Part shown: positions 22,301 to 61,400 of the stretch, in pieces
Position numbering within the stretch: position 1 is the stretch's first letter
Layout: each line of letters begins with the position of its first letter
Assembly: GCA_021613375.1 (NCBI GenBank)
Contig: CM038709.1
Coordinates: forward strand, 38,585,656-38,649,655
DNA from: Megaleporinus macrocephalus
Taxonomy: Eukaryota > Chordata > Actinopteri > Characiformes > Anostomidae
Length of the DNA stretch: 64,000 nt
Direction of reading: 5' to 3'
Notes under the pieces: generated by a model
What the model was told of the DNA's origin: nothing
The model's database searches: none
What the model saw: only the letters and a program-made list of their open reading frames with translations
Translations under genes and position numbers: made by a program

Positions 22301-25300
22301 TCTTAAAGATCAAGGCTTTAGGTGTTGTTCATCTGATGGGGACAGTTTTGGTGCTCTACCAGGTCTTCCGGGTGTTTCCTCTGAAGCCAAGAAGATATTT
22401 TACACAATATTTCAAGTAATTGTGGAGCCCAACAAGGCGTTACGAAATTATGTATAGTGCAATAATGTACTTATAAAAAAATCCTTGATCAGGAAATTTG
22501 ATTACCACCAATAAAACATGAGGCATAATAATAATTCCACCCAGATGTCAAGTCTGTTTATGTATTTCAAACTTTTACGTAGTGATTCCAAACTGTACAA
22601 AATGTCTTATTACAGCATTTCTGGTTTGATACTTGACAGGTCCTCAGAAACCAGACGGGGTGGTGTTGACGAGTGGTGGTAAGCTTTCATGTAAGCACAT
22701 CGCTCAGATGGTTGGGCCTAACCGTGCTCCTGATATCACAGCATCCATTGAGAAGGTCCTGAATCTATGTGAAGGCCAGGCAGCTGCCACAGTGGCCATC
22801 CCTGCTATTGGGACGGGTAAGATTACTGTGCACTGCTGTCTCTCACTAGCTTATGAATCACATTTTGAAATCATAGGTATTCTTCTTATATATCCACAGG
22901 AAAGGGTGGTATCAGAGCAAATGAGTCTATCAGTGCTATTTTAACGGGACTTGAAAACCATTTGACTCGGTTGACGTCATCCCACCTTACAAATGTAACT
23001 GTAGTTGCATTTGAACAGAAGATCTTCGACTCCTACTGCAAGTATTTCAAGGACAGGAGCAATAAGGTAAATGCTTGTCCAACTCTGTAATAAAGGAAAC
23101 AGTAGTGCACAGTAATATCATTTTCATGAGTCCTTGTGTACTGTTTTGTTTTTCAGATATCAGAACCCAAGATGCCTGCAAATCAAGGTTTCATGATATT
23201 CAAATATCAAAATTAACTTAATTCCTCAAGCAGTTTACAGTCCTTTTTAACTAGTCAGTTTTTTATTTCTCTGATACAGTAAGAATCTATTCATTCATCT
23301 GCTCTCTTCTTAGTCAAAGTTGGAGGTGTGAGGATCGAGGTTAGAAAAGGTAGCATCATTAACGAAACTGTCAGAGGCATTGTGAACACCACAAACAACC
23401 AAATGAACTTGACACAAGGTAGGTTTTTATGCTTTATGTTTATGTTCTAGCTACATTCTAGGTTAATTATCACTCGACTACCAATTGCCTTACAATACAA
23501 ACTGATTCACACAACATTCAGTTAACTCATTCACATCAGTACAAAGTCCAGATCACCTACATTGGTGGGTTTTCAGGAAGTTGGATGGGGCGGTGGGTGA
23601 ATGAAAGAGTAATTAATCAACATGCACCAGAATACAGCATTCTGTAAAACACATTCTGGAAAGTTCATTCTCACACATGTATACAACAGCCTACTAGGGT
23701 GGCAATGCTCCCAATGCACCCCCTTAGCGACGGCACGGGCCATGTTTGTCAATTTACGTCAGTAATATTATCTGAATCTTTTTTTAATTAAATTTAGTGT
23801 AATGTGACCAATTTTATATTTTATACCTCTTACAACAAACACATGGGGGCCCATAAAACCCCAGTTTTTAGATGTGAAGAACCTCGCTCACTCACATTTA
23901 GCAGGCTGAAGGTTCACCTTCCAGGCGATGATATTAGCTTCCAAAGCTTCACAAAAATGGTGCTTTGCATCAGTGACACTGTGTGTCCTTTGTTTTATTT
24001 ATACTGATACTGTACCAGCTGATACAATAACAGGATTGGTGTAACATTGTGTTACTGTCGTGTTATAAAACATGCATTCAAATTTTCAATATTTTATTTT
24101 TTTGTAGGTGTTTCAGGGGCCATATTCAAAGCGGCAGGATCCTCTGTCCAGCAGGAGTGCCAAAACCATGGTAAACACTATTTTTGTTAAGATGAGTGAA
24201 AGATATGAGTGACTATGGGTTTTATATGGGTTTTTAATGTATTTGAAGGTCCACTTCAGAGTGGCACAGCTGCAGTGACCAGTGGTGGAAACCTACAGTG
24301 CGATTACATCATCCACATAATGGGTCCCCACTCCACAGCTGAGGCAAGATTACGGGTGAAGAAGGTCCTGGAACGTTGTGAAGAGAAACAGATTAGCACT
24401 GTTTCATTCCCTGCTGTTGGAACTGGTAAGGATTTAGTGCTAAAATAGTTTTTCTTAGAACCGGATAATACATTTGTAATTTCTGTGTTGTGGGTACAGA
24501 TATCAGTGACTGATCATTTCACTCTACTGCATTTGAAAACTGCATTATACTGCATTACATTTACATTTACAAATAGGGCATTTAGCAAAGCTCTGATCCA
24601 TAAGTGCTTTGTGTTGGATTAGAGTATGTATCTCTAGCTAGTATAAACAGGTTTAAGTCCAAACTACCGTTGAGCTCAAACACTGCCAGAAACAAGGGTC
24701 AGTGCTGATAACTGGAAAGAAGATAACAAAATACAAGGTTTGATACAGTAGAACTGCAATACCTTGGAATACCTAGCAAGACAGAAATACCTAAAGAGAA
24801 GAGAATAAAATACAAGGTTGCATACAGTATAATGGCAAGACCTAATAATACCCAGCTGGTGTTCCTACCTAGAACATAAAGAGTTAAGTGCAGCTACATA
24901 AATACAATATGATTAATTCCATTAATACAGTAGATTGGTGCTTATAGGTGGTCCACAAAGAGATGGGTCTTTAGTCTCATTTTGAGAACTGGTGCAAGAG
25001 TCTGCTGTTCGGACATCCAATGGAAGTTCATTCTACCATCTGGGTTCCAAGACAGAGAAGAGTCTTGACGCTTGTCTTGCATGCATAAGGGTACAGATTA
25101 GGGCTGGTTATCGCCACTGATTTCCCAATTCGATTCAATTTCTGATTCGATTCAATTCAATTAAAAAACGATTCATTTAGGGATATTTCAGTTACAATAA
25201 TATGTTTTGTTTGAATTTGAAAAGAGATTTACAGAGAACTAATGTGGTAAATATACAAGGAACACTTAACCTACCATTACTAAAAACATTAGTGTTTATA

Positions 25301-43301: not shown

Positions 43302-43473
43302 ATGAGTGGGAAAACTTTAGTGCTCGAGGGGCTTCCAGAAGATCTGGACTGCGTCAGGACAACCCTGGCCTTGTATTTCCAGAATAAGAGGAGGTCAGGA
43401 GGAGAAGCTGCGCGCATAGAGGAGCATCCAGAGGACACGCGGAAAGCGCTCCTCGTCTACCTGAGCGGAGCAG
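43302..43473 (+). CDS. parp14: PARP14-like gene 2, exon 1: first half of RRM1
   Basis: ATG at 43302, [20 protein letters not shown], then [20 protein letters not shown]. Length (172 nt) and phase are identical to exon 1 of gene 1. The frame that continues past the donor GTAAGG is intronic. Confidence 0.93.
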
Positions 43474-46400
43474 GTAAGGCAGGAACCCAGGCTGAATTCT
43501 GCGCGGAGGGGTGAGGAACAGTGGAGAAGGTTCTGTGGAAAGTCCTCCGTGAAGGAGACGCGCGTTACCTTCCTGAAACTGAGGCGCACTTCAGCGCTCC
43601 GGTCTCACCAGAGCGGTCAGTGGTCCCTACACGGGGGGTCAGCATCACACATTCAAACTGTCTATCTGTCACTCAGCTTCTAAAACCAGCCAGAGAGGAT
43701 GAGGTTGGGGCACCATTAAACCTACACGAGATGCTGTTTTGTCCTCGTGACTTCACAAGAAAGTGAAACTGATGTGTGGGCGCTGTGCCTCCTCCCACTC
43801 CCACAGAGTGATGTTCTAAAGCTCTTCTCTGTTACACCAGGGCTGCGAGATTTAGGTCCCAGTATAACTGTAGTGTTACTTCACTACAGAGTCCGTAAGG
43901 TCACGTGATTATTTGTTAATTAGTTGAGACTTGGCCACGAAAAAGTACTAATTAATATATTAAGGCAACTAAATTATATTGAAGCTACAAATTATTATTT
44001 AAGTCTACTTATTAGTTATTATATCATGGTTACAAATTACTATATTGAGATTACATATTATTATATTGAGGCTGCTTATTACTATATTGAAGCTACAAAT
44101 TAATATTTGAGGCTACAAATTATATATTAAAGCTAGAAAGTATTATATTGTGGCCCAAAGTAATATATTTTAAATCTACAAATTAATATATTCTGTCCAC
44201 AAATTATTATATTTAGGCTACAATGTAATATATCATAATATATAAAATAATAATTTGAGGCTACTCATTACTATGTTAAAGCTACAAATTATGTCAATGG
44301 CACAAAGTAATATTTTAAAGCTACAAATTAATATATTGTGGCCACAAATATTGAGGCTATAAATGTAATAGAATAGTAAATGAAAGTTACTCATTACTAT
44401 ATTAAAGTTACAAATTATGTTATGGCCTTAAAATTAATATTTTGAAGCTAGAAATTAATATACTGAGGCCACAAATTACTACAGTGAGGCTACTATTTAA
44501 TATATTGAGTCTCCAGATTAATATATTGAGGCTACAAATTACTATCATGAGGCTACTCTTTACTATATTGAAGCTACAAATTAACATTTGAGGCTACAAA
44601 TTATTATATTAAACTACCAATTACTACATAGAGGCTACAAATTATATATTAAAGCTAGAAAGTATTATATTGTGGCCCAAAGTAATGTTTTTTAAATTTA
44701 CAAATTAATGTATCCTGTCCACAAATTATTATATTTAGGCTACAATGTAATATATTGTGGCTACAATTTAATATTTTGAGGCCACAAATTAATATATTGA
44801 AGCTACAATATTTGAGGCTACAAATTATTATATTAAACTACAAATTACTTTATAGAGGCTACAAATTATATATTAAAGCTAGAAAGTAATATAGTGTGGT
44901 CTACAAATTGATATATTCTGTTTACAAATTATTATATTTAGGCTACAAAGTAATATTCTGAGGCTACAATTTAATATTTTGAGGCCACAAATTAATATTT
45001 TAAAGCTACAAATGAATATATTGTGGCCACAAATGATTGTATTGAGGCTAGTCATTAATACATTGAGTTTACCCATTATTATATTAAAGCTGTCATAAAT
45101 TAATATATTGTGGCCACAAATTATTATATTTTGGCTTCAAAGTAATATACTGAGTCTCCAATTTAATATAACGAGACAAATTATTACAAAAAACTATCGT
45201 GATGCTACTATTTACTATATTGAAGCTACAAATGAATATATTCAGTCCATAAATGATTATATTTAGGCTACAAAGTAACATATTACAGCTATAAATTAAT
45301 ATTTTATGGCCACAAATTATTATATTGAGAATAGAAACTAATAATTTGAGGCTACTCATTACTATATTAAAGCTACAAATTATGTTAATGGCACAAATTA
45401 ATATTTTAAAGCTACAAATTAGTATATTGAAGCTATAAATTAATGTTTGAGGCTACAAACAATTATATAAAGTTACAAATTACTATAGTGAGGCCACAAA
45501 TTATTATATTAAACTACTAATTACTACATAGAGGATACACATTATATATTAATGCTAGAAAGTAATATATTTTGGCCAAAAGTAATATATTTTAAATTTA
45601 CAAATTTATATATTCTGTCCACAAATTATTATATTTAGGCTACAAAGTAATATATTGAGGCTACAAATGATTATATTGAGGCTAGTAAATAATATATTGA
45701 CATTACCCATTACTATATTAAAGCTACAAATTATGTTAAGGCACAAATTAATATTTTAAAGCTACAAATTAATATATTGTGGCCACAAATGATTATATTT
45801 TGGCTTCAAAGTAATATATTGAGTCTCAAATTTAATATATTGATGCTACAAATTACTATCATGAGGCTATTAGTTACTATATTGAAGCAACAAATTAATG
45901 TTTGAGGCTACAAATGATTATATAAAGTTAGAAATTACTATATTGAGCCTACCAATTACTATATTAAGCCTACAAATTAATATATTGAGACTTCCCTTCC
46001 TATATTGAAGCTAAAATTATTATAAATTATATTATAGCTATTATAGCTAAATTATTATATTGAGGCTACAAATGACTTTATTAAGGCTTCTCATTACTTT
46101 ATTGAAGCTACTCATTTTTATATTAAGGCTAAACAAATGATTATAGTTAGTCTACAAAGTAATATATTGAGGTCACAAAATACTATATATTGAGACTACA
46201 AGATAATATCGAAGCCACAAATGAATATATTGAGGGCACCAATTACGATATTGAGACTAGTAATAAATAAACTGTGGCTACTCATTACTATATTAAAGCT
46301 ATTATATTGAGGCTACAAATTAATATATATTGAGGCTATAAATAACTATACTGAGGCCACAAATTACTATATTGAACTACAAATTAATACATTAAGCTCA

Positions 46401-49400
46401 CAAAGTAGGCTTCGGCACCTCAGTTTACAAACTCATTGCGTCAGTACAGTAAACTGGTTAAAGATACAGTTCTGCTTTTGCATTTGGGCTCTTTTAATCT
46501 GTTGGTTTACCAACTAATTTGCAAAAACATGCATAGGAGACACAAAACATTAAACTTACTATTTTTGTTCCCCTTAGAGTTGGAAACACGTTACTATAAT
46601 TGTGACTTTTAGGAAGTTTCCAATGAAAGCTCTTTTACAGTAGCGATGAGATTCTTTTTATAACCATGTTGTTTTAACTGTAGCTTCTAGAAGTGAAACT
46701 CTGATGCATCACACAAGATATTATCCACTTCTTTCACAATAAGATATTGTATTTATGATTATTTACATCTGTTTCAATGATATCAGGTGTCCTTACTGGT
46801 AAAAAATACATTTACTGATAAGATAAAGGCTTTTAAACAGATACCTAGGACTTTAGCACAGTAGTGTATATACAAATTTTAAACTGCCTTTGCCCCTGGG
46901 TTCCTGACCTTAACACCAAAACATACTTCAGGTCTGTGGGAAACACTGGGATGCTTTGAAAGAGTTAACCTCTTAACCGTCCCCTCCTTTTTACCAATTT
47001 CCGCCTGAAAACACATACCCATGTCTTGAAGCTTTTCACTGAAACACTGCATAAATTAGTGTAATTTTCAAGATGTAATGTTCCTGAAAAGCCTTCAAAT
47101 TTGTACTAGAAGCACTAAAAGGCATTGAAATTAATCTGCGATGCTCCAAATATGCTGAAAACAACAACAAAAAAAACAGGCGCTTTTCTAATTTTTATTT
47201 TAAAATTTAAATTTTAGTGTCTACCAAAAATAGAGTTTATGTGTCCCCAGACTTTTTCCTTTAGAAAAGTGTTTCTGCATGTGTCTACAGTCACCAGAAA
47301 AAAAATGGAGTTGATTTCTTTTACTGATTTGAAGTTATTCAAACTGGAGTAGAGAGTGAACAGGGGGTCCCCCCCACTGGTCTATTGGGGTGTCCAAGGT
47401 CCCCCAACCTCCCCAAAATGAAAACAGCTGATTTTACTGCAAAAAAAATATGTATATATTTGTATATGTTATATTCTTATAACTCCCACATCTAAAAATG
47501 TGTTTATTCACTTTCCTTGACAAAATAATGTCATGTATGATTTTTAGGCCATTTTTTACCATATTTTACATGTTTATTATAAGTCCATAACTAAATTATC
47601 TTCTTGGAAAGTCAGTCAGTTTATAACCTCAGACTGTACTTTTATTTTGGTATCGTTTGGAGCTGTTTATCTGGTGTAAAACTCCCTCTGCTGCCCGATT
47701 TCAGTAGATCGCCGCCGCTACTCTTCCTTTTGAGCTTTACTAATCATTCTTAAACATCATAAAATATCGTTTTCTTTGGTTTGGGACTTTGATTAGGGTT
47801 CATAGTTAATGTTTTGATCGTTGTTCTTCAGTGATCAGGACCCCCACAGGACCACCACAGAGCAAGTATTATTTGGGTGGTGGGGTATTCTCAGCACTGC
47901 AGTGACACTAATGTGATGGTGGTGTGTTAGGGGGTGTTGTGCTGGTGTGAGTGGATCAGACACAGCAGTGCTGCTGAAGTCACTGTCCACTCACTGTTCA
48001 CTCCTACTTGTATGTGTACTCTTCCACAGCAGCAGCATATGATGGAGTGTTTTATACTACGACAGTTTTCCTAAAATTGTATTGCTTATAGTATCACAAT
48101 ATATCACAATGTATTGAATTATAATCCATGTATTGTCAGGCTTATGCCATTATATGTCCTAGCAGATGTTTAATAATAAATCAGGACTATATGTATTAAT
48201 AACATGGTGTGCGTAAAGCTTACGTTTACTCCAGCTTAAATATGGTGGGTCTGTGATCACTCTGAATGTTCCACTCCTCATCCTGAGCTCAGATCACACT
48301 TATCTAAGCTTTGGCATACTTTTCATTTCTCATCCACAGCTTCACAGCAGGTGCTCACTAAAGGAACCCACCGGGTTGATTTCAAAGATGTAGGAATCGT
48401 TCAGTTGACAGTAAAGCGGCTGGAGGACAGCAATGTTCAATCTGCAACTTCCAAACCACCTGTACCTCCTAAACCAAAGCTGGAGACACTCACTGGAAAA
48501 CCCCTGCAAGCTACTGGTCTACAGGTGATTTTATATATTAATGAATTGCTTAATGATTATATGACACATTCCAGGATGTGATGTTTTATAAATGTTCTTT
48601 CTGTTTCCTTTTTTAAAGCCTGATTCCAAAAGTCACAGAGGTAAGATCTGCATTTTCTGTTTCAACGTCAGATAAAGTTCATTATGGTTGTTAAATTGTT
48701 ATTCGTGGTATATTATTCTCATCCTTTCTTTTTATCATTATTATTTTCTGCCCGATTTTCAAAATATTAACTCCATTCCAACTCCAGATTGTCCGGTATA
48801 ATTGTGTGATTCGGGCCTGTATATACAGCTTTTTGATTGGATGCACGGATTCCAGATAATTCCGGAATTTTTTCCCATACAGAATGAATAGCATGGAAAA
48901 GTGAAATTTTGCTCAACTGACAGGCACTGATTTGCATACACTGACTCAGGGCAGACCCCCAACCATGACTGTAGTGTTGTTTCGACCCGCACTTGTCTGT
49001 TTCTTTCCCCCATAGGGCACCATTTATATTTGAGCCCACCCAAACATTATGGTTTCGTTTAACCTACAACCCGCAAACTGCATGTACTCAATCCACAAGC
49101 ACTAATCCACAGATATACTCTATTTGTCGTTTTTTCGTGTCTCTCCATTCCAAATAGAACTTCCAAACAAACAGTTATCTAGCTAACTGTTCTCTGAAAC
49201 CAGTTGAGAGTTTACTTGGCAGTGTGTTTGGGATCATGATCTTAGTCAACTCAGAACTGAGAATATCTTCTGACCTTAATCGGACTGGTCATACAAAACT
49301 GATATGTAGGAGAAGATATGCACATAGTGCGTCTCTGGTGGGTCTGGTTTGGGTGCTTTGCAAGAAATTCCAATGTGTCAGGTGATCGGCATTCTAGCAG

Positions 49401-52400
49401 CTGTATTTTCTTTCTCTGAAACCAATTGAGAGTTGGCAGCAGATTTTCATCAAGAATGTCTTGGTACATTTGTCAGTTTATCCTTTCTTCAATGATATGA
49501 AGCGTGTCAGTGACGTATTCTGAAAAACAGCCTTACACCATGATCTTCCCACCTCTAAACTTCACTGTTGGTTTGGTGGTTTTAGGGTGATATGCAGCCT
49601 TTTGACCTCCAAACATGAGTATATTATGGCATTCAAAGACTTCAGTTATGGTCTCATCTGACCAGTCTATATTCTCCCAGTATTTCACTGGCTTGTTTAA
49701 ATGTTGGGTAAACTTCAATATTGTTTTTTTTCAGCAATGGAGTCTTATATAGTGAGCGTTCATACCGGCCATGGCAGTTGAGTGCATTACTTATTGTTTC
49801 CTTTGAAACAATTGTACCTGCTGATTCCAGGTCTTTCTGTAGCTCTCCACAGGTGGTCCTTGTCTCTTGGACAACTCCTGTGACAATTCTTTTCACTTCT
49901 CTGTCTGAAATCTTGCGGGGAGCACCTGGTCATGGCCGGTTTATGGTGAAATGATGTCCTTCCACTTTCAGATTATGGCAGCACCAGTGCTCACTGGAAC
50001 CTTCAGTAGATTAGAAATTCCTCTGTAACCAATGCCATCAGAATGTTTTGCAACAACAAGGTTGCGAACGTCTTGAGAGAGCTCACTGGTTTTACCCATC
50101 ATGAGATGTTTGTTGTGTGGCACCTTTTTATGGGCCATCAGTTGAACCAGCAGATATTAGTTTGTACTAAGTGGCAGGATTGCTTTCGAGTTACTGATAG
50201 ATTTCAGCTGGTATCATGACTTTCCATGGCTTTTTGCACCTCTCTTTTTTTTCATGTGTTCAATACTTTCTCCCTGTGTCATTTCTCATTACTACACATA
50301 ATTTATAGACATCTGTGGTTTGATTTCTTGCATGAATGGATTGGACGGGTTGTTCCAATCTATTTGTTCAGTCAGTTGCACAACAGTGCATTCCTATTTT
50401 AGATGTTTTGTGTTTTGGTGGCATTTACACCGAACACTAGTGCTGCCACTAAGCCTTTGCCACCTGCTGGAAGTTACATGCATTATGTACGCATTACCTC
50501 TAGCACTGAAAATCAGTAACATCACAATTTAAAGAAACATTTTTAAAATGCCAATAGCTACGATTTTGGATTTCACGATTAGAAAGCTACGATTTTGGAT
50601 TTCAATTTTAATATGTAAAGCACTCAGACATGAAACTCAGTCTTATTTTTTCTAGCATTGGGTGCTATTTGCACGCAAGCACAGCTCTGATCTACCGCTG
50701 TTTGAATGAGCCCTTGCTGACCGAGCAGTAGAGAGAAGGAAACAAACAGTGGTTTTGTCACTGACTTTGCAATCCCATCCACAGATTCACATCAGGTATC
50801 CAATAAAAGAAACCAGCAAGCTGATTTTAAAGATGTAGGAACAGTTCGGTTGACAGTAAAGCAGCTGGAAGATGGCAGTGTTCAATCTACAAACTCCAAA
50901 CCACCTATATTCCCACTCACTGGAAAACCACTGCATGCTACTGATCTACAGGTGATTTGTTTTTCTTGGTTACTACATTTTTTTAATAAATAAAAAAAGA
51001 GAGAAAAAAATATATATATAGACAAGGTGAGTCAAAAGTCTTAGGACCGACATAAAATGACAAATCTGAATACCTAGCAAATAATGGGTGAGGGTGCATA
51101 TCTTATAGGCTATGTCCTAAACATGGCTACCAGCTTGAAAGCTGCAGTATTGGATCAAGGGCAAGTTTTTGTAATGGGAAGGTGGTCGTGTAGCAGATCA
51201 GAGAAGACCAGAATTGTCTCAGAAATTGATTGATGCAGTCAGATGTGCAATATCTCTTGTGGTTCAAACGTTATTAACACAAAAGGTTGTAACAACAATA
51301 TATAACAACAGAACAGATATATATGTAGCTCAATACATAACATCTCGTTGTTTTAAGTAAAGATCTGTGGTTCTATAATAGCTAGTATCTGAAAATCACT
51401 CCTAACTGAAGTTGTCATAGATGTTTCTGTAATATCGCCTCTGGTTGTTAAAGTTTATTTGAGCCCTTAATTGTACGTACATGTCTGTAATTACTTCATG
51501 ATTATATGAAGTGTTTTCAAAGTCCAGTTTCATTCTTTTAAATATTTTTTCTGTTTTCGTTTTTCACTGGATCCTGAATAAAAAGCCTGCTTTGAAACGT
51601 CATACTGGTAAGACATATTGTCATTATTCTCTTGGACCGCCAGATTATCTTGTATGTTTATCCTTAATGTCCTTGCCAATTGACTTCAAGCATTAAATTC
51701 AATTTAATTTAATTGTGTTTATGCTGTATTTTAAAATGGGCATGAAGTGAAACAAACCCCAAAATTGTTTACTTGTACCTATATATCTCCACATTAAATG
51801 GAAAACAAGCCTAAATAGTTTTCATAAGGCCACCAGAGCTGCTTTAGTGCAGCTTTTCTGTAGGTATTACAAGTCTGAGTAACTGTATTAATCACATGGA
51901 ACACCATTCTTCTAAAAGATATACTCTCAGTCAATGTTTTGAGGATAGTGGTGGAGAGCGCTGTCTAACACTGTGCTCCAGAATCTCCCATAGAGGTTCC
52001 ATTGGGGTTTTGAGATCCAATGGCCGTGAAGGCCATAGCATTTTGGTGGTGTTTAAAGAAAAACACTCTTGTTTTATTATGGTTGCGCATTGCAAAGCTT
52101 GTGATGGTGTGATTTGGGCTTGTATACAGCTTTTTGATCAGAAACCATATAAGTAGTAAGATCTGATTGTGGTCATGTAAATCCCTGTCTTTTTAATTCC
52201 ATCCACAGGTTTGAAGCAGGTGCTTAATAAAAGAACTAAACACGTTCATTTCAAACATGTTGGAAGAGTTCAGTTGACAGTAAGGCAGATGGAAGGCGGC
52301 AGTGCTCATATTCAAAACTCCAAACCACCCCTACTGCCTAAACCAAAGCTGGAGACTCCTGGACAGGTGATTTGGGAATGTGATAAGATTTAAAATCAGT

Positions 52401-55400
52401 TTTCTTAATATTTATCTCAATATTCAACTGTATAAACCTAGTAAATGTTCCAGTTTATGCATTGGTAAATAAGCAGGTAACAGGTGACTTACAATCAAAA
52501 TGTGTTTTTTTTTCATTATATTTAATCCTGGATGAAAAGCCTCCATCCAAAAGTCCCAGAGGTAAGACTTTAGATTGTTTGCTTTGCTCCATATTTCCTT
52601 ACTTAGGAACATCCTCGATTATAGAAAACATATAAAACAACATTTGAAAATAAGATTATTTCTCAGATTTTTTCAAGGTTTGTGAAGATAAAGACAAAGA
52701 CTTTGGGACATGTGAGGAAGAAAGCGTGGCGGGGAAGTGGGACCCCCGTCGCTTCATCTTAAGTGGTTTCAAAGACTCCTGCAAATATAAATTAGTCACA
52801 CTGTTCATTAGTGGTTGCAGTCAAAACGCAGCACATACTTGGGAGCTTCTGGATGAAGACAGGATTGCGGTTACCTTCAGAGAAGACATTGGTGAGTTCA
52901 AATTAAAATTAAGGTTTAACTTTAAGCACATTTTACACTGCCATCTTAATTTCCCAGGTTTGCTACATTTTAAGACCTATTATTCAGTAATTACATGGAA
53001 AACTTATTTTTCAGATTATTATTCAGTTATTTTCAGGAACAACAATCTGGAACCACTAGGGGACACCCGCATTTGTAGTAGTACTTTTTATTCCTTTATC
53101 ATTTGACTCTTACTGTATTGTCTCTAGATATAAAAAGGTTCTTGAGCGAATGCACCATCAAGAAACTGCAGGGCATGAACATTACAGCCTCCCGCTTGGA
53201 GCTCACAGATTCAGTCCTGGTCCAGGGGAACATGAGCGGCATTAAAGAAGACCTGCTTACTGGACATTTCAGCAACAAAGCAAGAAGCGGAGGAGGAGCT
53301 ATAAAATCTTTACTCTGGATTAACAAGCAAAAGAGTGTAGTTGTCACCTTTAAGGACTATCATGGTAAGTCTTGTCTTATGCATGTAACATTAAGGTTAG
53401 CAAATATTCAGATTATGAAATACACAGTCTAATATCCAGAGTAAACACCGTGTGCAGCACAGACAGAAGCTAGATGGACTGGGGACTGGGAGGTTCTGGT
53501 AGGTTGTCACAGGTATCTGGAGCCATGCTGACTGCAGTGCACCCCACAGCTGCTGGAGGGAGCATTGGGAAGGATGCATAGAGACAGATCCAAGATGATC
53601 CAGGTGGTTCCACAGGTGTTCAATTGGATTCAAGTCTGGGGAATTAAGAGTCCAGGGTAGTTCTTGGAAGTCTTGGTCAGTTCTTCCAACCAATGTGGGA
53701 CATTTCTAGCCATGTGTTGTGTCACATTGTCTTGCTGGAAGATCCCCTCCAACCCAGGGAAGACAATCAGCATGTATGGGTTTATGTGATCTGCAAGGAT
53801 GGATTCAGACCCAAATCAGTTGAGAGTGTCTTCCACATGGATGAGTGGGTCCAGAGAATGCCAAGAAAACATCTCCCAGACCATAACGATGCCACCTATG
53901 CTGTCGAAAGAGAGTAGAAAATTATTATTGGTCATAATAATGTGGCTCAACTGTGTAATAGGCTTAATACTCTGCACTGTGGGTACATTAGAATAGTTCT
54001 TTTATCTGACATACCAAATGGCTACAAAATTGCTTAACCCCTGGAACATTTTGAATGTTCTTATCCTATGCTTCACTAGTCAGGAAGGAGTTAACTTACC
54101 AACACAATACATTGGAGGAGAACAATTACTCTGCCAAAAGTTGTTGATCACAGCTGTTCAAATTTCATAACACAAACATGCTTATTGGCAAGTCAGAATG
54201 AAGTAGATCTGAAGAGTCTGAAGTGTAAAGAGATATACACAGTCCTAATATCTATAATTGACACAATCAAAATGAACTTTCTGTTTGACTGACGCTTCTG
54301 GATCAGTTGGGTATGAACGTGACAAGTGATTGTTTTATTTTACTTTCTGTTGTAGTGGCATATGAAGTGGTGCAACAGAGTCATCAACTTTGGGGCACGT
54401 CTTTTACCACTTACCTGTTCTACTCAAGCTTCCAGAAAGCTCTGACTGGAAAAATGGCAACTCTGTCTGGCGTACCTACAAATATCACTATTCCTGTTCA
54501 TGAGGAGGTTCTTAATTTCGTTGAGAAAAATGAACCATTCAAAAAGGACTTTCAGAACCGACTCAGAACGGTTCACGCAAACATCTTTTTTGGCAAGACC
54601 ACGTCACCCAGAAAGATCGCCCTTGAGATGGCCGTTGACAAAGGCTCAATAGCTGCATTGCGAATTGGACCAACATGGGAGTACAAGGCAAGGAGAGAGG
54701 CCCAAGCCTTCCTGACCAGGTACACTGTAGCTGAGTTGGCAGTAAAGGAAGATGTGTGGAAAACGATGAAGAACGATTGTCTCTGTCTTGTCTCTGCTGA
54801 GGCTGGCATCTCTTTCCAGGAAACCAGCTCTAAAGTTGTAATAGTTGGCCTTAGGGAAGCAGTCAGGTCCCTCTTAGAGAAGTCCAGGAGACTTCTGGAG
54901 AACGCAACCAGGGACTTAGTTGTGGAGAGAAAGATTAGCGATGAGTTGATGGTGTCGGACTATTTCAAAATGATTCCTCTCAGATCTGAGCAAGAAATGG
55001 AGTTTGTTGAGTCCTGCATGAACTTGTCAGAGATTCCAGAAGTCAGGAACACGGGCATGACCATACTTGCTTCCGAAACACAGAATTGTCATTGTCTCAA
55101 AGTTTTAGGAAAACAGGAACATATTCAAGATGCTATTAGAGTGGTAAAGCAGAGGCTGTCCTCCATTATCACCGAGAAGCTGACTTACTCCAATGCCGGC
55201 GAGGCCAAAGTACTAGAGAAGCATGAAGTCAATGTAAATGCCAGATGCAAAGAATGGAACTGCAAGGTGTACCTCTCACCAGAGCAAATTAGCAAACCTG
55301 GCTGTACAAGAAGGTTCTTTCACAAGATAAGCAGCTGCATCACTTTGACCATCGCTGAGGGTGACCTGCATCAGTATCCTGTTGATGCTTTGATTTGTCC

Positions 55401-58400
55401 TTTGTCTAAAACCCTGGCTTTTGACAACCCTACTGCCCAACAGCTGCTTGAAGTTGGTGGTTCCCAGATTCAAGAGATGTGCAGCAAGCTTCAAATGGAG
55501 AAGAAGTCTCTACTTCCTGGGGATGTATTTCTTAGTAGGGCAGGAAATCTGCATGCCAAGTCCCTGATATGTGCTGTATTGCCCAAAAGAAACCAATATC
55601 AGGCCTCTCACCACCTGAAATCCGCCATATATCACAGCCTTCACAAAGCAGAAGAAAGGAGTAGTACTTCAGTAGCAATGCCTGTTCTAGGTGTCAGAAC
55701 GTTCGGTTTTTCCATCAAAAAAAGTTGCATTGCAATCAGCGAAGCAATCATGCAGTTCAGCAGTGATCGTCACAGCTCCACAAGCCACTTGAAGACTATG
55801 TTTGTGGTAGATCATGACTTCAGGGTGGTGAAGGAGGTTGACACTCTTGTTGCACAGCTGGTAAGTTTTCTTCAGGTTTGTGTGTCCACATATAGCTAAA
55901 AGGAAACTTTCCTAATAAAATAATAAAACGCACTGCAGTCCATGAGCAATTGTTATATATTCTGTTAGTGTTGTACTCAAGCACACTGGAAATATAACTA
56001 AACAATGACAATGACAGGATTTTAGCAGAAAAAAAAAAAAATATATATATATATATAGAAAAGTGATGGATGCGCATGAATGACAAATAGAGAAGTGTGG
56101 GTGGGTATGTCTTTGGAGTAGAGGTTGACTGAGGTTGAGTGAGTACCGTTAGTTTGGAGGCTGTAAGTTTAACGAAACCGCAATGTTTGGTTGTGTTAGA
56201 AAATGAATAGAACTCTATGGGAAAAAAGAGGGATGAGTGCGGGTCAAACCTACACTACAGTCGTGGTTGGGGGTCTACCCTAAATCAGTGTATGCGAAAT
56301 AATGTGTGTGGGTTAAGTAGAAGTACAACAGATTGGCGTGCACTTTTCCATCCTATTCATTCTCTATGGGATTTTTTTTTTTAAATCAGCTCCAGAATCA
56401 GAATCTGTGCATCTGATCAAAAAGCTGTTTACAATCCTGTATCACACAATCAGACCGGATAATCTGGAGTTGGAACAGAATAGAGCTATGCAGCACAGAC
56501 CTGGCAGAAAGTAAAAAGCGAACAACTTAATAATGCTTTGTAATGCTCAACCATACAGATAAATGAAACTGTTTGCTACCCGTCAACTAGCCATCATCCC
56601 TGATAGGTTCCTAAAACCACCTCTTCAGTGAGTTCAGGCAATGGTCTTGGTCAGTCCTTCCCAGCATCTGTAGCAGGTTTTTGGTTGACTATTCTGCTGC
56701 AAGGCAGTGTGCCATGTCCCTGTGTGTCCCTAGAGAGTCAGGATAAAAGTGTGAGGAGTTTGTTCAAATGATTACAGGCACCTTGTGGTGGTTATCTGAG
56801 GATGCTAAAGCAGAAGGAGGCCAGATACTTAATACTACTGGCCTATAACATCAGTTTAATTACGCCTACAACATATTTTTATTCTGTGAAATATATTCAT
56901 GGATTTTCTCTGATTTTGTTTCTTTTTCAAGCTATCTTCTAAAAGGACACAATCAGCATGTGGACAGATGCCAGCAAATCAAGGTTTGTCATATGTTTAT
57001 GGTAATCCCACTAGGACAGGATATGTATATATATCTACAAAAGTTGTAGGCACCTAAGCTCATTGCTTAAAAGCCTTTATGTTAGCAATCAGTGTGTTTT
57101 CACCACCTGATTTTATTAGAACAGACATAAATAGAATAAATATAATACAAAGTAATATAAATATCTTATTCTGAAAGAAGTTGATCATATCTTGTGCTTC
57201 AGTTTGAAGAACTGCTAGTTCCAGATTTCTCCTGGGTGCCCAGCACTCAATTAAGCCTAGCTTGATGTGTATGTGTATGTGATCTCCTCTGGTCTGACCA
57301 TTTGGTCTAACTCCCTGCAATTAGCATAATTTTCAGATCCTCCTCCATTTGCAGAGAGGATCTCAGAATTGGGCATTAGCACAAAATTTGGAGGTTGAAA
57401 AGACAAAGTTTAAGTCTTAACCTGCCTAAGCGAGTCTGACAAATCAGTTAAGGCCTGTCAAAAAAAAAACAGAGGCAGATGTTTCTTTCCTCGCATCTAA
57501 AAATTCTTAAAGGGGAAGTGAGTCACTGAATGAAGAAGCATTTGCGTGCTGGGGGATTCTCGAGGTTGCTCTCACTTTCTCAGTCATCAGAGCGACAGTT
57601 CAGTAATAAATTATAAAGTCAAAGCACCTCTTAAGCTTGTGGTTTTGTAATATGCAGAGTGATGGTAAAACAAATTTATTGTTTTTTTTTGGGGGGGGGG
57701 GTACTGTCTTCTTGTAAACTAGTAAAAAGCTTAGAACATATGAAACATTAGATGAGTCTAACTTGGATGTGTTGCCAACTGTTATTGTGTAAGCAGAGTC
57801 AGATGCAGGCTGTAGGGCGGGTGCGCAGGGGTGGAGGGCAGGTGTCCAGCCAAGTTTGGTAGTTTAGTTGCTCAAGCAAATCTGATTCAACTGACTTGTT
57901 AATTGTAGAAGAATTTCCAGACTGTGCTGGATAACGGACCCCAGGAGTTTAACAGTCTGGTTCCTGTTCCCATTATTTAATGGAACTGTAATTTTTAAAT
58001 CTTTTCAATAATGTGATGAATGTGTAACCTAAACATAAGGTAGCGTGACTCATTCTTTTTGTGATGTGGCCTGTACAGAGTGTCCCAGGAAGATGACCAG
58101 TAGAGCACATCACGGAGAGGTTGGCACAGTCAGCACATGCAGGTAATATTATCTATTTATTTTGCTTTAATTGTATATCTTTGTGAAATTACATGTTTAT
58201 TTATGATGTATAAAATGTATTTGCAGTCAGACTTATGTATGTTCTTTAACATTTTTCTGTGGTATAAATCAACATCAAACATTAGGAGCTTGATCTTTTC
58301 AGTGAAGGCTTTGTATGAAATGATCTGCCACTGTAAGGAGTGGGTTGCAAGAGCGGAGTGGTTTTATAAGTGGTGTTCCAGTATTCCAAAATCTACAAAC

Positions 58401-61400
58401 CCAGTTACCAGGAGTCAAAGCAAGAATCAGAACAGTCTGGACAAACCAGGAGAAACATCTGGTTAGAAACACAACTAACGCCAATGACTGATCAACCTAA
58501 CATGCATATCTTTTGGATTGTGGGAGGAAACCCAATCAAACACGGGGAGAACATGCAAACTCCACACAGAGCGGCCCAGACCGGAAATCCAACCTGGGTT
58601 GCTGAGCACTACACCACCGTGCCGCCCTCTGATTAAGAGCTTTAACAGCTTAAATAACTCATCAAGTCAAAACTCATCAAGACAAGCCTTGTGCGAAGGC
58701 TGCAGTAGGTAGAAGCGTCATGAACTTGCTCAGTTTTGCCAGTCATGCCTTGCGGCGAAAATAAACAAAACAAAACAGCCTTGTAAACAATATCTGATAC
58801 ATGTGGACGAGGCCTGTATTTTTGTGACCAGACGTCCTGTTTTTTCAGAGCTAGAAATGTCCTAATAAAGACCTGCAGAAGAGCGGACAGGCAGACGTCT
58901 TGTGGTGTTGTGTTTGTTTTGGCCAACTGCTGCTCTCTAGTGACCACTTCTGCCTAGCTTTAGGGACCACTGCTGTGTGCAACTCAGTGGTAGAAATGGT
59001 TAGAAGATAAGAGCAGGCCCCTCTGCTGACCTAAACAAGCAGGACCTCTGCCCCTCCGCTCTACTGCAGGTCTTTATTAGCACTCTTCATTGGGATTTTA
59101 TTTCACAGTTAAAAATGAGGACATTTCTGGCGACAGCTCCAGCAACTCTAGGAAACTCTAGGACAGCTCCAGAAAAAATTGGACGTCTGGTCACCCAAAA
59201 TTAGGCCACATCCACACATAGGAGAGGTATGAAGCTAATAAGTGTCCAGTGAGAACATCACTATAGTGTTCTGAAGTCTCCTACCGTTACTCTCACTATG
59301 GTAGCTACTGTATGATTTTCTAACACGGTTTAGAAAGGTAATACCCAAATTTACTGGTTGGCCTTCACTAGAGTTTATTGTAGTACAACAGTTAGCCTGA
59401 TATGAATTTGAGAGACATCCCATTCTTATTCCATAGAGTTTAATATGATGTTGGCCCACCCTTTGCAGCTATAACAGCTTCAACTCTCTGAGAAGGCTTT
59501 TCACACGAGTGTGTTTATGGGAATTGTTAACTGTTCTTCCAGAAGCACGTTTGTGAGGTCAGACAGTGATGTTGGACGAGAAGGTCTGGCTCACAGTCTC
59601 CGCTCTAATTCATCCCAAAGGTGTTCTATCGGGTTGATGTCAGGACTCTGTGCGGGCCTGTCAAGTTCCTTCACACCAAACTTTCTCATCCAAGTCTTTC
59701 TGGAGCTGCTTTGTGCACTGGTGACTGCAGTCATGTTGGAATAGGAAGAGGCCGTCCCCAAACCGTTCCCACAAAGTTGGGAGCACGAAATTGTTCTCCT
59801 GGCAACCGCAAAACCCAGACTTGTCTATCGGATTGCCAGACAGAGAAGCGTGATTGGTCACTCCAGAGAACATATATCCACTGCTCTGGATTTCAGTGGT
59901 GGCGTGCTTTACACCACTGCATCCAATGCTTTGCATTGTGCTTGGTGATATAAGGCTTGGATGCAGCTGCTCAGCCCTGGAAAGCCATTCCATGAAGCTC
60001 TCTGCGCTCTGTTCTTGAGCTGATTTGAAGGCCACATGAGGTTTAGAGGTTTGTAGTGACTGACTGCAGAAAGTTGACGACCCCGCTCTGTCATTTTACA
60101 TCGCTATCACTGACATTGTGGAATATTTAGTAGTGAGGACATTTCACGACTGAACAGGAGGCATCTAATCGTGGTGCCACGCTGGAGTTCACTGAGCTCC
60201 TGAGAGCAACCCATTCTTACACTAATGTGTGTAGAAGCAGTCTACAAGACTAGGTGTTTGGCTTTATACACCTGTGACCATGGAAGTGATGGGAACACCT
60301 GAATTCAATGATTTGGATGGTTGAGTGAATACTTTGGCAATATGGGGTGTGTCTCAAAACCTAGTGAACTGTCTAAGTTGGTACTGTCTAGGTAGGCAGC
60401 TGTTTAAGTAGGCAGCGTTCTGTCTGACATCTCTCCTCATAAAACAGATTACTGAGACGCTCTAGTTAGAGAGCGACTGCATCATGGCTTGTTTCCGGCC
60501 GGCATCCAAAACAATAGCCCGAGGCTTAAAAATCTGCTAGCATAAATGCTTATGGCTCAAGTATAAAACCGCAAAATGGTGAACGACTTGTTACAAAGTT
60601 GATAATAAAATACTGTTTTGTGTGATTATATGACAAGAAACACATTAAAACACCAGAGAGAATCAAAATAACTCACATTTTAAAACAACTTCACTGCTAT
60701 GAGCAGAAGAAGTGTTAAATGCTTCCTTAAAATCAGGTCAAAATAAGGTTCCTTAGTAGACAGCATGTATAAGGAAAGAATTGGGACAGCCTACATGTTG
60801 GGAGCGCATAAAATGACGTAAAATGCTGCCTAGTAGGGAGCTCACTAGGTTTTGAGACACACTCATGGTGTACATCACAAAGGAACTGCCAACTCTCAAC
60901 ACGTTTTATTATATAGATAAAAACATTGGACATTTTAATGATAAACTGACCACTAAACTGGAAATATCCCCAGTTTTTAATTAAAAAATCTAGTCACCTT
61001 AGCAGAAATGTCTGTTTTTGTCTTTCTCACAGCACCTTTAAGGCATTACACTGTCCTTTATTGTGTATTTTCCAGGGATATAAGCTTTTCGTTGTGGCAC
61101 CCAAACACAGGCTTTGATGTAAGTACCAAAGAGGTAAAGTTAGGTATGTGCCCAGCTTTGACCTTTATATAAAAATTGTTCTTAACTCCAGCTTCTCTGT
61201 ACCTTCAGCTGAAGAACTTGGATCCAGACCTGAAGATGTTTTTTGACATGTGTGGAGTCAGTGAGGCGCATCTAAAGGACAAGGAAACCTCTAAATTAAT
61301 TTATGAGCTAATTCAGAAGGCAGGTGGTCTGGAAGCTGTTAAAAATGAGATTAGGGGAAAAGGTGAGAAGGAGTCTTAATAGATTGTTAAGGATGTGCAA

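Follow-up and report, generated by a model that had tools for sequence, protein, structure and literature searches.

Why does a PARP14-like gene of a characiform fish contain the GTPase-binding domain (GBD) of a WASP-type protein, and what could this domain do there? The gene in question is the second of two PARP14-like genes, both on the + strand, in a 64,000-nucleotide stretch of the Megaleporinus macrocephalus genome (hereafter the window; contig CM038709.1, C8:38585656-38649655). An earlier reading of the DNA letters, the sequence-only reading, had noticed three GBD exons in this gene, which we call gene 2, and had proposed that they turn an ADP-ribosyltransferase into a sensor of the cytoskeleton or of pathogen effectors, or into an integrated decoy. 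Our analysis indicates that the exons are almost certainly spliced into the gene 2 product, that their Cdc42-binding part (CRIB) is degraded and that their helix-binding core is kept. We favour a reading in which the GBD of gene 2 would be a bait or decoy for ligands of the C-helix type, microbial or host, and we give it a probability of about one half; Cdc42 binding is rated low for this gene.

The GBD block is made of exons h, i and j, of 64 + 43 + 154 = 261 nucleotides (nt) or 87 codons, with phases 1-2, 2-0 and 0-1 and AG/GT borders. Its neighbours are, as had been claimed, the MPANQ linker exon (56932-56983) on one side and the KH8/WWE exon (61459-62037) on the other. Between 52678 and the end of the window, 11 exons join into a frame of 1070 amino acids (aa) without a stop; the ten complete ones have AG...GT borders and the last one has the AG. 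Completed from the genome, the last exon reaches a stop codon at C8:38649965, 310 bases beyond the window. Among Protein Data Bank (PDB) chains, the 87-residue segment matches the N-WASP GBD (8s5t, E 2.6e-28; 6uhc, 4e-27) and WASP (2k42, 1.7e-19); eight matches had E <= 1, of which 9mqr (0.93) is due to chance. In the profile check that had been suggested for the segment, the Pfam PBD score of 19.8 bits is slightly below the curated cut-off of 21.3, which alone would have missed this GBD. The helix-binding core of a WASP-type GBD is present. A tblastn search of the window with the segment found exons h-j, the remainder being weak pieces (E 2.2 or worse), and gene 1 gave nothing beyond such chance-level pieces. 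The features are as follows (P numbers denote database proteins).

8929-38883 (approximate), + strand: gene 1, a GBD-free PARP14-like gene that has macro domains 1-4 (P0013 and P0002 by tblastn)
43302-43475, + strand: gene 2, first coding exon, RRM1-type of PARP14, starting with ATG (88% identity to residues 1-58 of P0002 from Colossoma)
48340-48522, + strand: gene 2, repeated proline-rich exon (PPVPPKPKLE), copy 1 of 3 (repeat family D5; ends set by eye)
about 50785-50951 and about 52209-52367, + strand: gene 2, copies 2 and 3 of the proline-rich exon (71% and 77% identity to copy 1)
52678-52891 and 53128-53364, + strand: gene 2, RRM exons d and e (splice sites, open frame; 75-76% identity to P0002)
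54356-55860, + strand: gene 2, exon f, KH domains and macro domain 1 (Pfam on the open reading frame: Macro 2.8e-14, KH_PARP14_2 1e-9)
56932-56983, + strand: gene 2, exon g, linker LSSKRTQSACGQMPANQ, phase 0-1 (like the gene 1 linker exon 23157-23187, by eye)
58079-58142, + strand: gene 2, GBD exon h at the position of WASL/WAS exon 7, 64 nt, short, phase 1-2, with a degraded CRIB
61076-61118, + strand: gene 2, GBD exon i, corresponding to WASL/WAS exon 8, 43 nt, phase 2-0, with the CRIB end and the HPNTGFD hairpin
61209-61362, + strand: gene 2, GBD exon j, corresponding to WASL/WAS exon 9, 154 nt, phase 0-1, with the helix-binding core
61459-62037, + strand: gene 2, exon k, KH8 and WWE (Pfam WWE 4.1e-9)
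63431-63585, 63667-63841 and 63969 onward, + strand: gene 2, exons l, m and n, PARP catalytic domain, exon n extending beyond the window

Gene 2 has the RRM, KH, macro, WWE and PARP order (Pfam on its exons and on P0002). Exon m alone gives Pfam PARP at 9.5e-6 (25.7 bits against a cut-off of 26.7), and the catalytic domain is complete, with the catalytic H and Y and a leucine in YPDYLITF that we take to be the third catalytic position. PARP14 proper has three or more macro domains. Gene 2 is therefore PARP14-like and not a strict PARP14, because it has macro 1 alone, and tblastn of P0013 (E <= 0.01) found no macro match at 55.9-61.0 kb. It shares RRM, KH, macro 1, KH8, WWE and PARP with PARP14 in the same order, lacks macro 2-4 and has the WASP-type GBD instead of them in its present form. 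In gene 1 the linker exon (ISEPKMPANQ) leads through a phase-1 intron to macro 3; it is at this point that gene 2 enters the GBD.

The mode of capture can be read from the exons. According to the splice variants printed for human WAS (c.559+1, c.734+2, c.735-1, c.777+1 and c.931+2 in PMC9304939; c.778-2 and c.931+1 in PMC12145701), exon 7 spans c.560-734, exon 8 c.735-777 (43 nt) and exon 9 c.778-931 (154 nt), so that their phases are those of exons h, i and j, and exons 8 and 9 are of equal length too. In the fish's own genome (1.28 Gb searched; contigs written C1, C8 and C9), the genes that we name wasla (C1:44.55 Mb) and waslb (C1:1.39 Mb) by similarity to WASL, and one gene of WAS type (C9:28.0 Mb), likewise contain exons of 43 and 154 nt in these phases; another WAS-type gene (C9:29.6 Mb) deviates, with a 179-nt exon (by script) and no separate exon 8 match. 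Because lengths and phases are as in WASP-family genes, we conclude that the block entered as DNA, introns included. On this evidence exons 7-9 are a symmetric 1-1 unit, moved by exon shuffling, as the sequence-only reading had it. We reject capture through an mRNA: the introns stand where those of the donor do, and gtaata, the donor context of exon 7, recurs.

The donor was sought in a GBD tree of 83 columns and 40 rows (left of 43 from 26 chosen proteins, the window and two human sequences after three repeats or fragments had been dropped). The human WAS and Chanos WAS-type rows stand apart (100/98), the gene 2 row clusters with its counterparts from Colossoma and Pygocentrus (98/97), and 22 of 37 inner branches are open, most PARP14 copies being unplaced relative to WASL. 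By blastn, exon 9 of gene 2 is nearer wasla (75%) than waslb (73%). A donor nearer N-WASP (WASL) than WAS is supported; the phylogeny that had been proposed to find the donor paralogue separates WAS and goes little further. A test of one clade uniting the 16 PARP14 GBDs does not reject it (p-AU 0.50), which is no proof of monophyly. When wasla and waslb stretches were compared by blastn with PARP14 introns (parts of the PARP14 cluster and window 55861-61460), the GBD exons were returned, together with three repeat-like pieces in window introns for waslb.

Gene 2 is not alone in its genome. A KH8/WWE query (17 candidates scored) found four places, each of them on C8. Two are gene 1 and gene 2, and the others, genes A and B, lie about 220 and 260 kb downstream. 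A GBD query found at least ten places: two exons of wasla, one place in waslb, one in each of two WAS-type genes, and five in the PARP14 cluster. Three of the four PARP14-like genes found therefore carry a GBD, and A and B carry two copies, a and b. The order in gene B is RRM, KH, macro 1-3, two GBD blocks, KH8/WWE and PARP, and gene A, whose first exons are outside the fetched stretch, agrees from the second part onward. In both, the two blocks follow macro 3 and precede KH8/WWE, the place taken by macro 4 in gene 1. Exon 8 of A.b and of B.b measures 25 nt, an 18-nt shortening common to both, and exon 7 was located neither in A.a and B.a nor in waslb. The sequence-only reading had the cassette replace macro domains 2-4, which fits gene 2 as it now stands; however, genes A and B keep macro 2-3 alongside the GBD. 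The simplest order, which we infer from these layouts, would be a gain near the macro-4 position, a doubling, and then the loss of macro 2-3 and of one copy in the line of gene 2. The macro 2-3 loss thus looks like a later step of gene 2, separate from the capture.

To what extent is the fusion shared by other fishes? A protein search with gene 2 residues 450-1070 scored 7991 candidates and returned 39 proteins, those of other species being database predictions. A search with the GBD only scored 20 candidates, gave one match and missed P0002-P0010; absence from it therefore means little. A GBD profile detected the domain in 10 of 34 PARP14-type proteins (P0002-P0010 and P0030), all from Characiformes, in seven genera of five families (Colossoma, Pygocentrus, Acnodon, Salminus, Astyanax, Hoplias and Prochilodus). 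The profile scan found none in the other 24, five of which are characiform (P0011, P0013, P0015, P0021 and P0025). In a host-gene tree of the C-terminal part, built without the GBD (34 rows, the window and 33 others; P0030, which has no C-terminal part, was omitted), the window, nine GBD rows and P0011 form a clade of 11 (100/100), so that the fish clade sharing the fusion, as far as it was to be found by phylogeny, is characiform. GBD presence needs two changes on this tree, which we read as one gain and one loss, and a single ancestral capture is the simplest account of this pattern and a likely one.

Within the clade, the window groups with P0002 (Colossoma LOC118810864) and P0003 (Pygocentrus LOC108425948), whose domain order is that of gene 2, at no more than 82/67. 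Five proteins have two GBDs and more macro domains (P0004, with three macro stretches by Pfam, P0005, P0006, P0008 and P0009); P0010 has one clear and one weak GBD, and P0007 and the partial P0030 have one each. The member without a GBD, P0011 from Salminus brasiliensis, is a shortened PARP14-like protein in which the linker MPENQ joins KH8/WWE directly, by loss or by exon skipping. The sequence-only reading knew of no PARP with this architecture, and the titles and abstract beginnings listed from the open-licence literature on PARP14 or fish GBD fusions name none, nor do they describe the P0002 and P0003 fusions.

What has been kept of the domain? Eight key CRIB positions were scored by script on one alignment. 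All eight are present in the WASL rows (human, Amia, Lepisosteus, Acipenser, Astyanax, two Metynnis, Prochilodus and the fish's own wasla), and the human WAS row, whose letters begin inside the motif, scores 5. Gene 2 scores 2 and thus has no WASP-type CRIB; the Colossoma and Pygocentrus gene-2 proteins score 4 each, and the a copies 0-2 (the fish's own two scored from exon 8 onward only). The b copies of other species and B.b score 6-7, three being complete by eye (one position lost to an alignment gap), and A.b scores 4. The tandem genes A and B may therefore differ in Cdc42 binding, B.b (C8:38903179-38907417) having a complete CRIB by eye and A.b a reduced one.

The core behaves otherwise. 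In gene 2 it is identical to human N-WASP at 35 of 49 positions (human WAS: 33 of 49). Exon j is 78% identical to P0002 and 76% to P0003, and the RRM, KH-macro, KH8-WWE and PARP parts lie at 74-80%; the figures are 61% and 58% for the whole GBD and 75% and 56% for the 17-residue linker. Gene 2 has 14-15 fewer residues before the hairpin than P0002 and P0003, where a basic stretch is found. Nei-Gojobori estimates on exon 9 (15 pairs) gave dN/dS values of 0.18 for A.a-B.a, 0.29 for A.b-B.b, 0.19 for gene 2-A.a and 0.22 for gene 2-B.a, the pN/pS intervals of the last two (0.20-0.54 and 0.22-0.59) being below 1; wasla-waslb gave 0.01, and dS was undefined for the window and waslb. Values near 0.2 therefore indicate a core that is constrained, less so than in WASL. 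Judged by these rates, the helix-binding core of the captured block is under purifying selection, and it is likely to be functional and to bind a ligand.

Which ligand could this be? In WASP proteins the core normally grips the C-helix of their own VCA part, and a pattern for this helix is given in ELM (quoted in PMC11253601). The pattern has one match in a WASL-type control, P0072 (shuffled sequences average 0.014), and none in the 1070-aa part of gene 2, in P0002 or in P0003 (shuffles 0.43-0.55; gene 2 0.43); P0004 has one, where shuffles average 0.79. Intramolecular autoinhibition is unlikely, given the missing motif in gene 2, P0002 and P0003. The absence of an internal C-helix motif suggests that the pocket is free, and gene 2 would thus probably be able to bind in trans.

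Integrated decoys, such as plant NLR-ID proteins and TRIM-cyclophilin fusions, are immune proteins into which a microbe-targeted host domain has been copied. The N-WASP GBD is such a target: EspFu, TmeA and NpeA carry the C-helix motif, IcsA is considered a competitor for the VCA-binding site (PMC11253601), and SemD uses the N-WASP basic region together with CRIB (PMC11344771). PARP14 itself is described as interferon-linked in mammals. We propose that the retained core of gene 2 would bind amphipathic ligands of the C-helix type in trans, the type that N-WASP VCA supplies and several microbial proteins copy. The core would bring the ADP-ribosyltransferase and its companion domains (RRM, KH, macro and WWE) to the ligand as a bait or integrated decoy, and the ligand or its surroundings might then be ADP-ribosylated or titrated. 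That the ligand is mainly microbial rather than host is slightly less likely than not. The likeness to integrated decoys lies in the copying of a microbe-targeted host domain into what may be an immune protein. The decoy or effector-sensor idea, which we infer, becomes somewhat likelier through the retained core, the missing internal ligand and the other GBD fusions of fishes described below.

Several observations weigh against a bait or decoy. The missing C-helix motif is weak evidence when taken alone, shuffled sequences averaging about 0.5 matches. Mycobacterium marinum is a fish pathogen. It is reported to need the basic region of N-WASP and not the GBD (PMC9232537), and the gene 2 segment is without the basic stretch found in P0002. 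Constraint on the core is far weaker than in WASL (dN/dS about 0.2 against 0.01), dS is above 1 in the gene 2 pairs, and the pN/pS interval of A.b-B.b reaches 1.02. Dating the gene 2 pairs after the capture assumes that there was one capture, and the GBD tree is compatible with this but does not demonstrate it. Finally, P0011 implies that the cassette is dispensable or skippable, at least in Salminus.

The alternative that survives best is a module directed at the host, in which the core would hold N-WASP or WASP of the fish itself by the VCA helix, place the enzyme at Arp2/3 sites and regulate actin in normal or immune cells, with no pathogen ligand involved. The part that is conserved is precisely the one that normally grips this helix, the ligand of the donor domain is a host helix (PMC11253601), and no internal motif was found that could compete for it. 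However, the GBD is confined to a set of PARP14-type genes that duplicate and lose domains, more like conflict genes than housekeeping ones, and 24 of the 34 rows, five of them characiform, do without it. We consider this alternative unlikely, though it deserves attention.

A decaying passenger, unneeded and drifting or skipped by splicing, would explain the degraded CRIB, the 14-residue gap relative to P0002, the Salminus protein and the weaker constraint. It accords poorly with an open frame, intact splice sites, a core that is 76-78% identical to P0002/P0003 with dN/dS of about 0.2, and GBDs in the predicted proteins of seven characiform genera, and it seems improbable to us. The sensor of Cdc42-GTP, a domain recruiting the enzyme to active Cdc42 at membranes, fits the b copies better than gene 2: those of B.b, P0004 (Colossoma) and P0010 (Prochilodus) retain I-G-x-P...F-x-H-x-x-H-V-G (by eye; 7/8 by script) and a basic stretch. 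In gene 2, with its CRIB at 2/8 and those of its Colossoma and Pygocentrus counterparts at 4/8, the positions of WASP F244, H246 and H249 are occupied by C, D and F, and both H246D (PMC5561213) and F244D/H246D/H249D (PMC11933580) have been called Cdc42-binding deficient. A sensor of this kind is therefore not supported for gene 2 and is very improbable there. An artefact, by which exons h-j would be part of another gene, nested or adjacent, or the product of a faulty assembly, finds some room in the size of the introns flanking exons h and i and in the transposon-like pieces that they contain, and is hardly credible given the identical join in the Colossoma and Pygocentrus proteins, the same block between macro 3 and KH8/WWE in genes A and B, phases that are compatible on both sides, and the assignment of all the listed genomic GBD places to WASP-family genes or the PARP14 cluster.

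Some other features of gene 2 may be recorded. The PPxPPKPK-type exon present in three copies has counterpart repeats in P0002 and could form an array of SH3 ligands. Pieces resembling Tc1 transposases, on the - strand, lie in its introns at 53397-53815 and 59591-60095 (from open reading frames, by eye), the second between GBD exons h and i, and a minisatellite-like array of units of about 60 bp occupies 62060-63000, in the intron 3' of the KH8/WWE exon (by eye).

How does gene 2 compare with other carriers of the domain? Relative to N-WASP (WASL) exons 7-9, the agreement lies in the core and in the length and phase of exons 8 and 9, whereas the CRIB is degraded, the basic stretch is absent and no WH1, proline-rich or VCA part adjoins. 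P0002 and P0003 share the architecture and differ by their extra residues with the basic stretch. A search with the GBD of P0037 gave 338 matches, and among the best 120, all predicted proteins, other host families appeared besides WASL and WASP-type proteins. In P0042 (Coregonus clupeaformis) and P0044 (Misgurnus anguillicaudatus), AIG1/GIMAP-type domains alternate with or precede N-WASP-type GBDs (Pfam AIG1, PBD). In the cyprinids Leuciscus, Pseudorasbora and Chanodichthys (P0001, P0033, P0037 and P0043), a RING and a WH1 domain are predicted together with a single GBD or a pair of them; towards the C-terminus the longer proteins resemble a HECT-like region, although Pfam called no such domain in P0037 at 0.001. 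These fusions resemble gene 2 in placing one or two N-WASP-type GBDs beside immune-type domains, and unlike gene 2 they keep 5-8 of the eight CRIB positions. No GIMAP-type or RING/WH1 fusion is among the places listed by the GBD query in the M. macrocephalus genome. In P0040 (Scomber scombrus) a Sleeping Beauty-type helix-turn-helix domain (Pfam) precedes proline-rich stretches and several copies of the GBD; the gene model could be wrongly joined, or the copy could be linked to a transposon.

One could imagine, and we regard this wider view as doubtful, that the N-WASP exon 7-9 cassette of teleosts has been captured repeatedly by immune-type families (PARP14-like proteins of characins, AIG1/GIMAP GTPases of whitefish and loach, and cyprinid RING/WH1 proteins) as an integrated bait for microbial proteins that target the N-WASP GBD, gene 2 having become a pure C-helix trap through the loss of Cdc42 control. 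The locus is a clear example of exon shuffling, since a single genome shows the donor-type genes, the captured copies and the intron positions, and the Cdc42-binding and helix-binding halves of a well-studied domain appear to evolve apart there. If the bait or decoy reading is true, a vertebrate ADP-ribosyltransferase would carry the docking domain by which several pathogens take over host actin, and would be an animal counterpart of the integrated decoys of plants.

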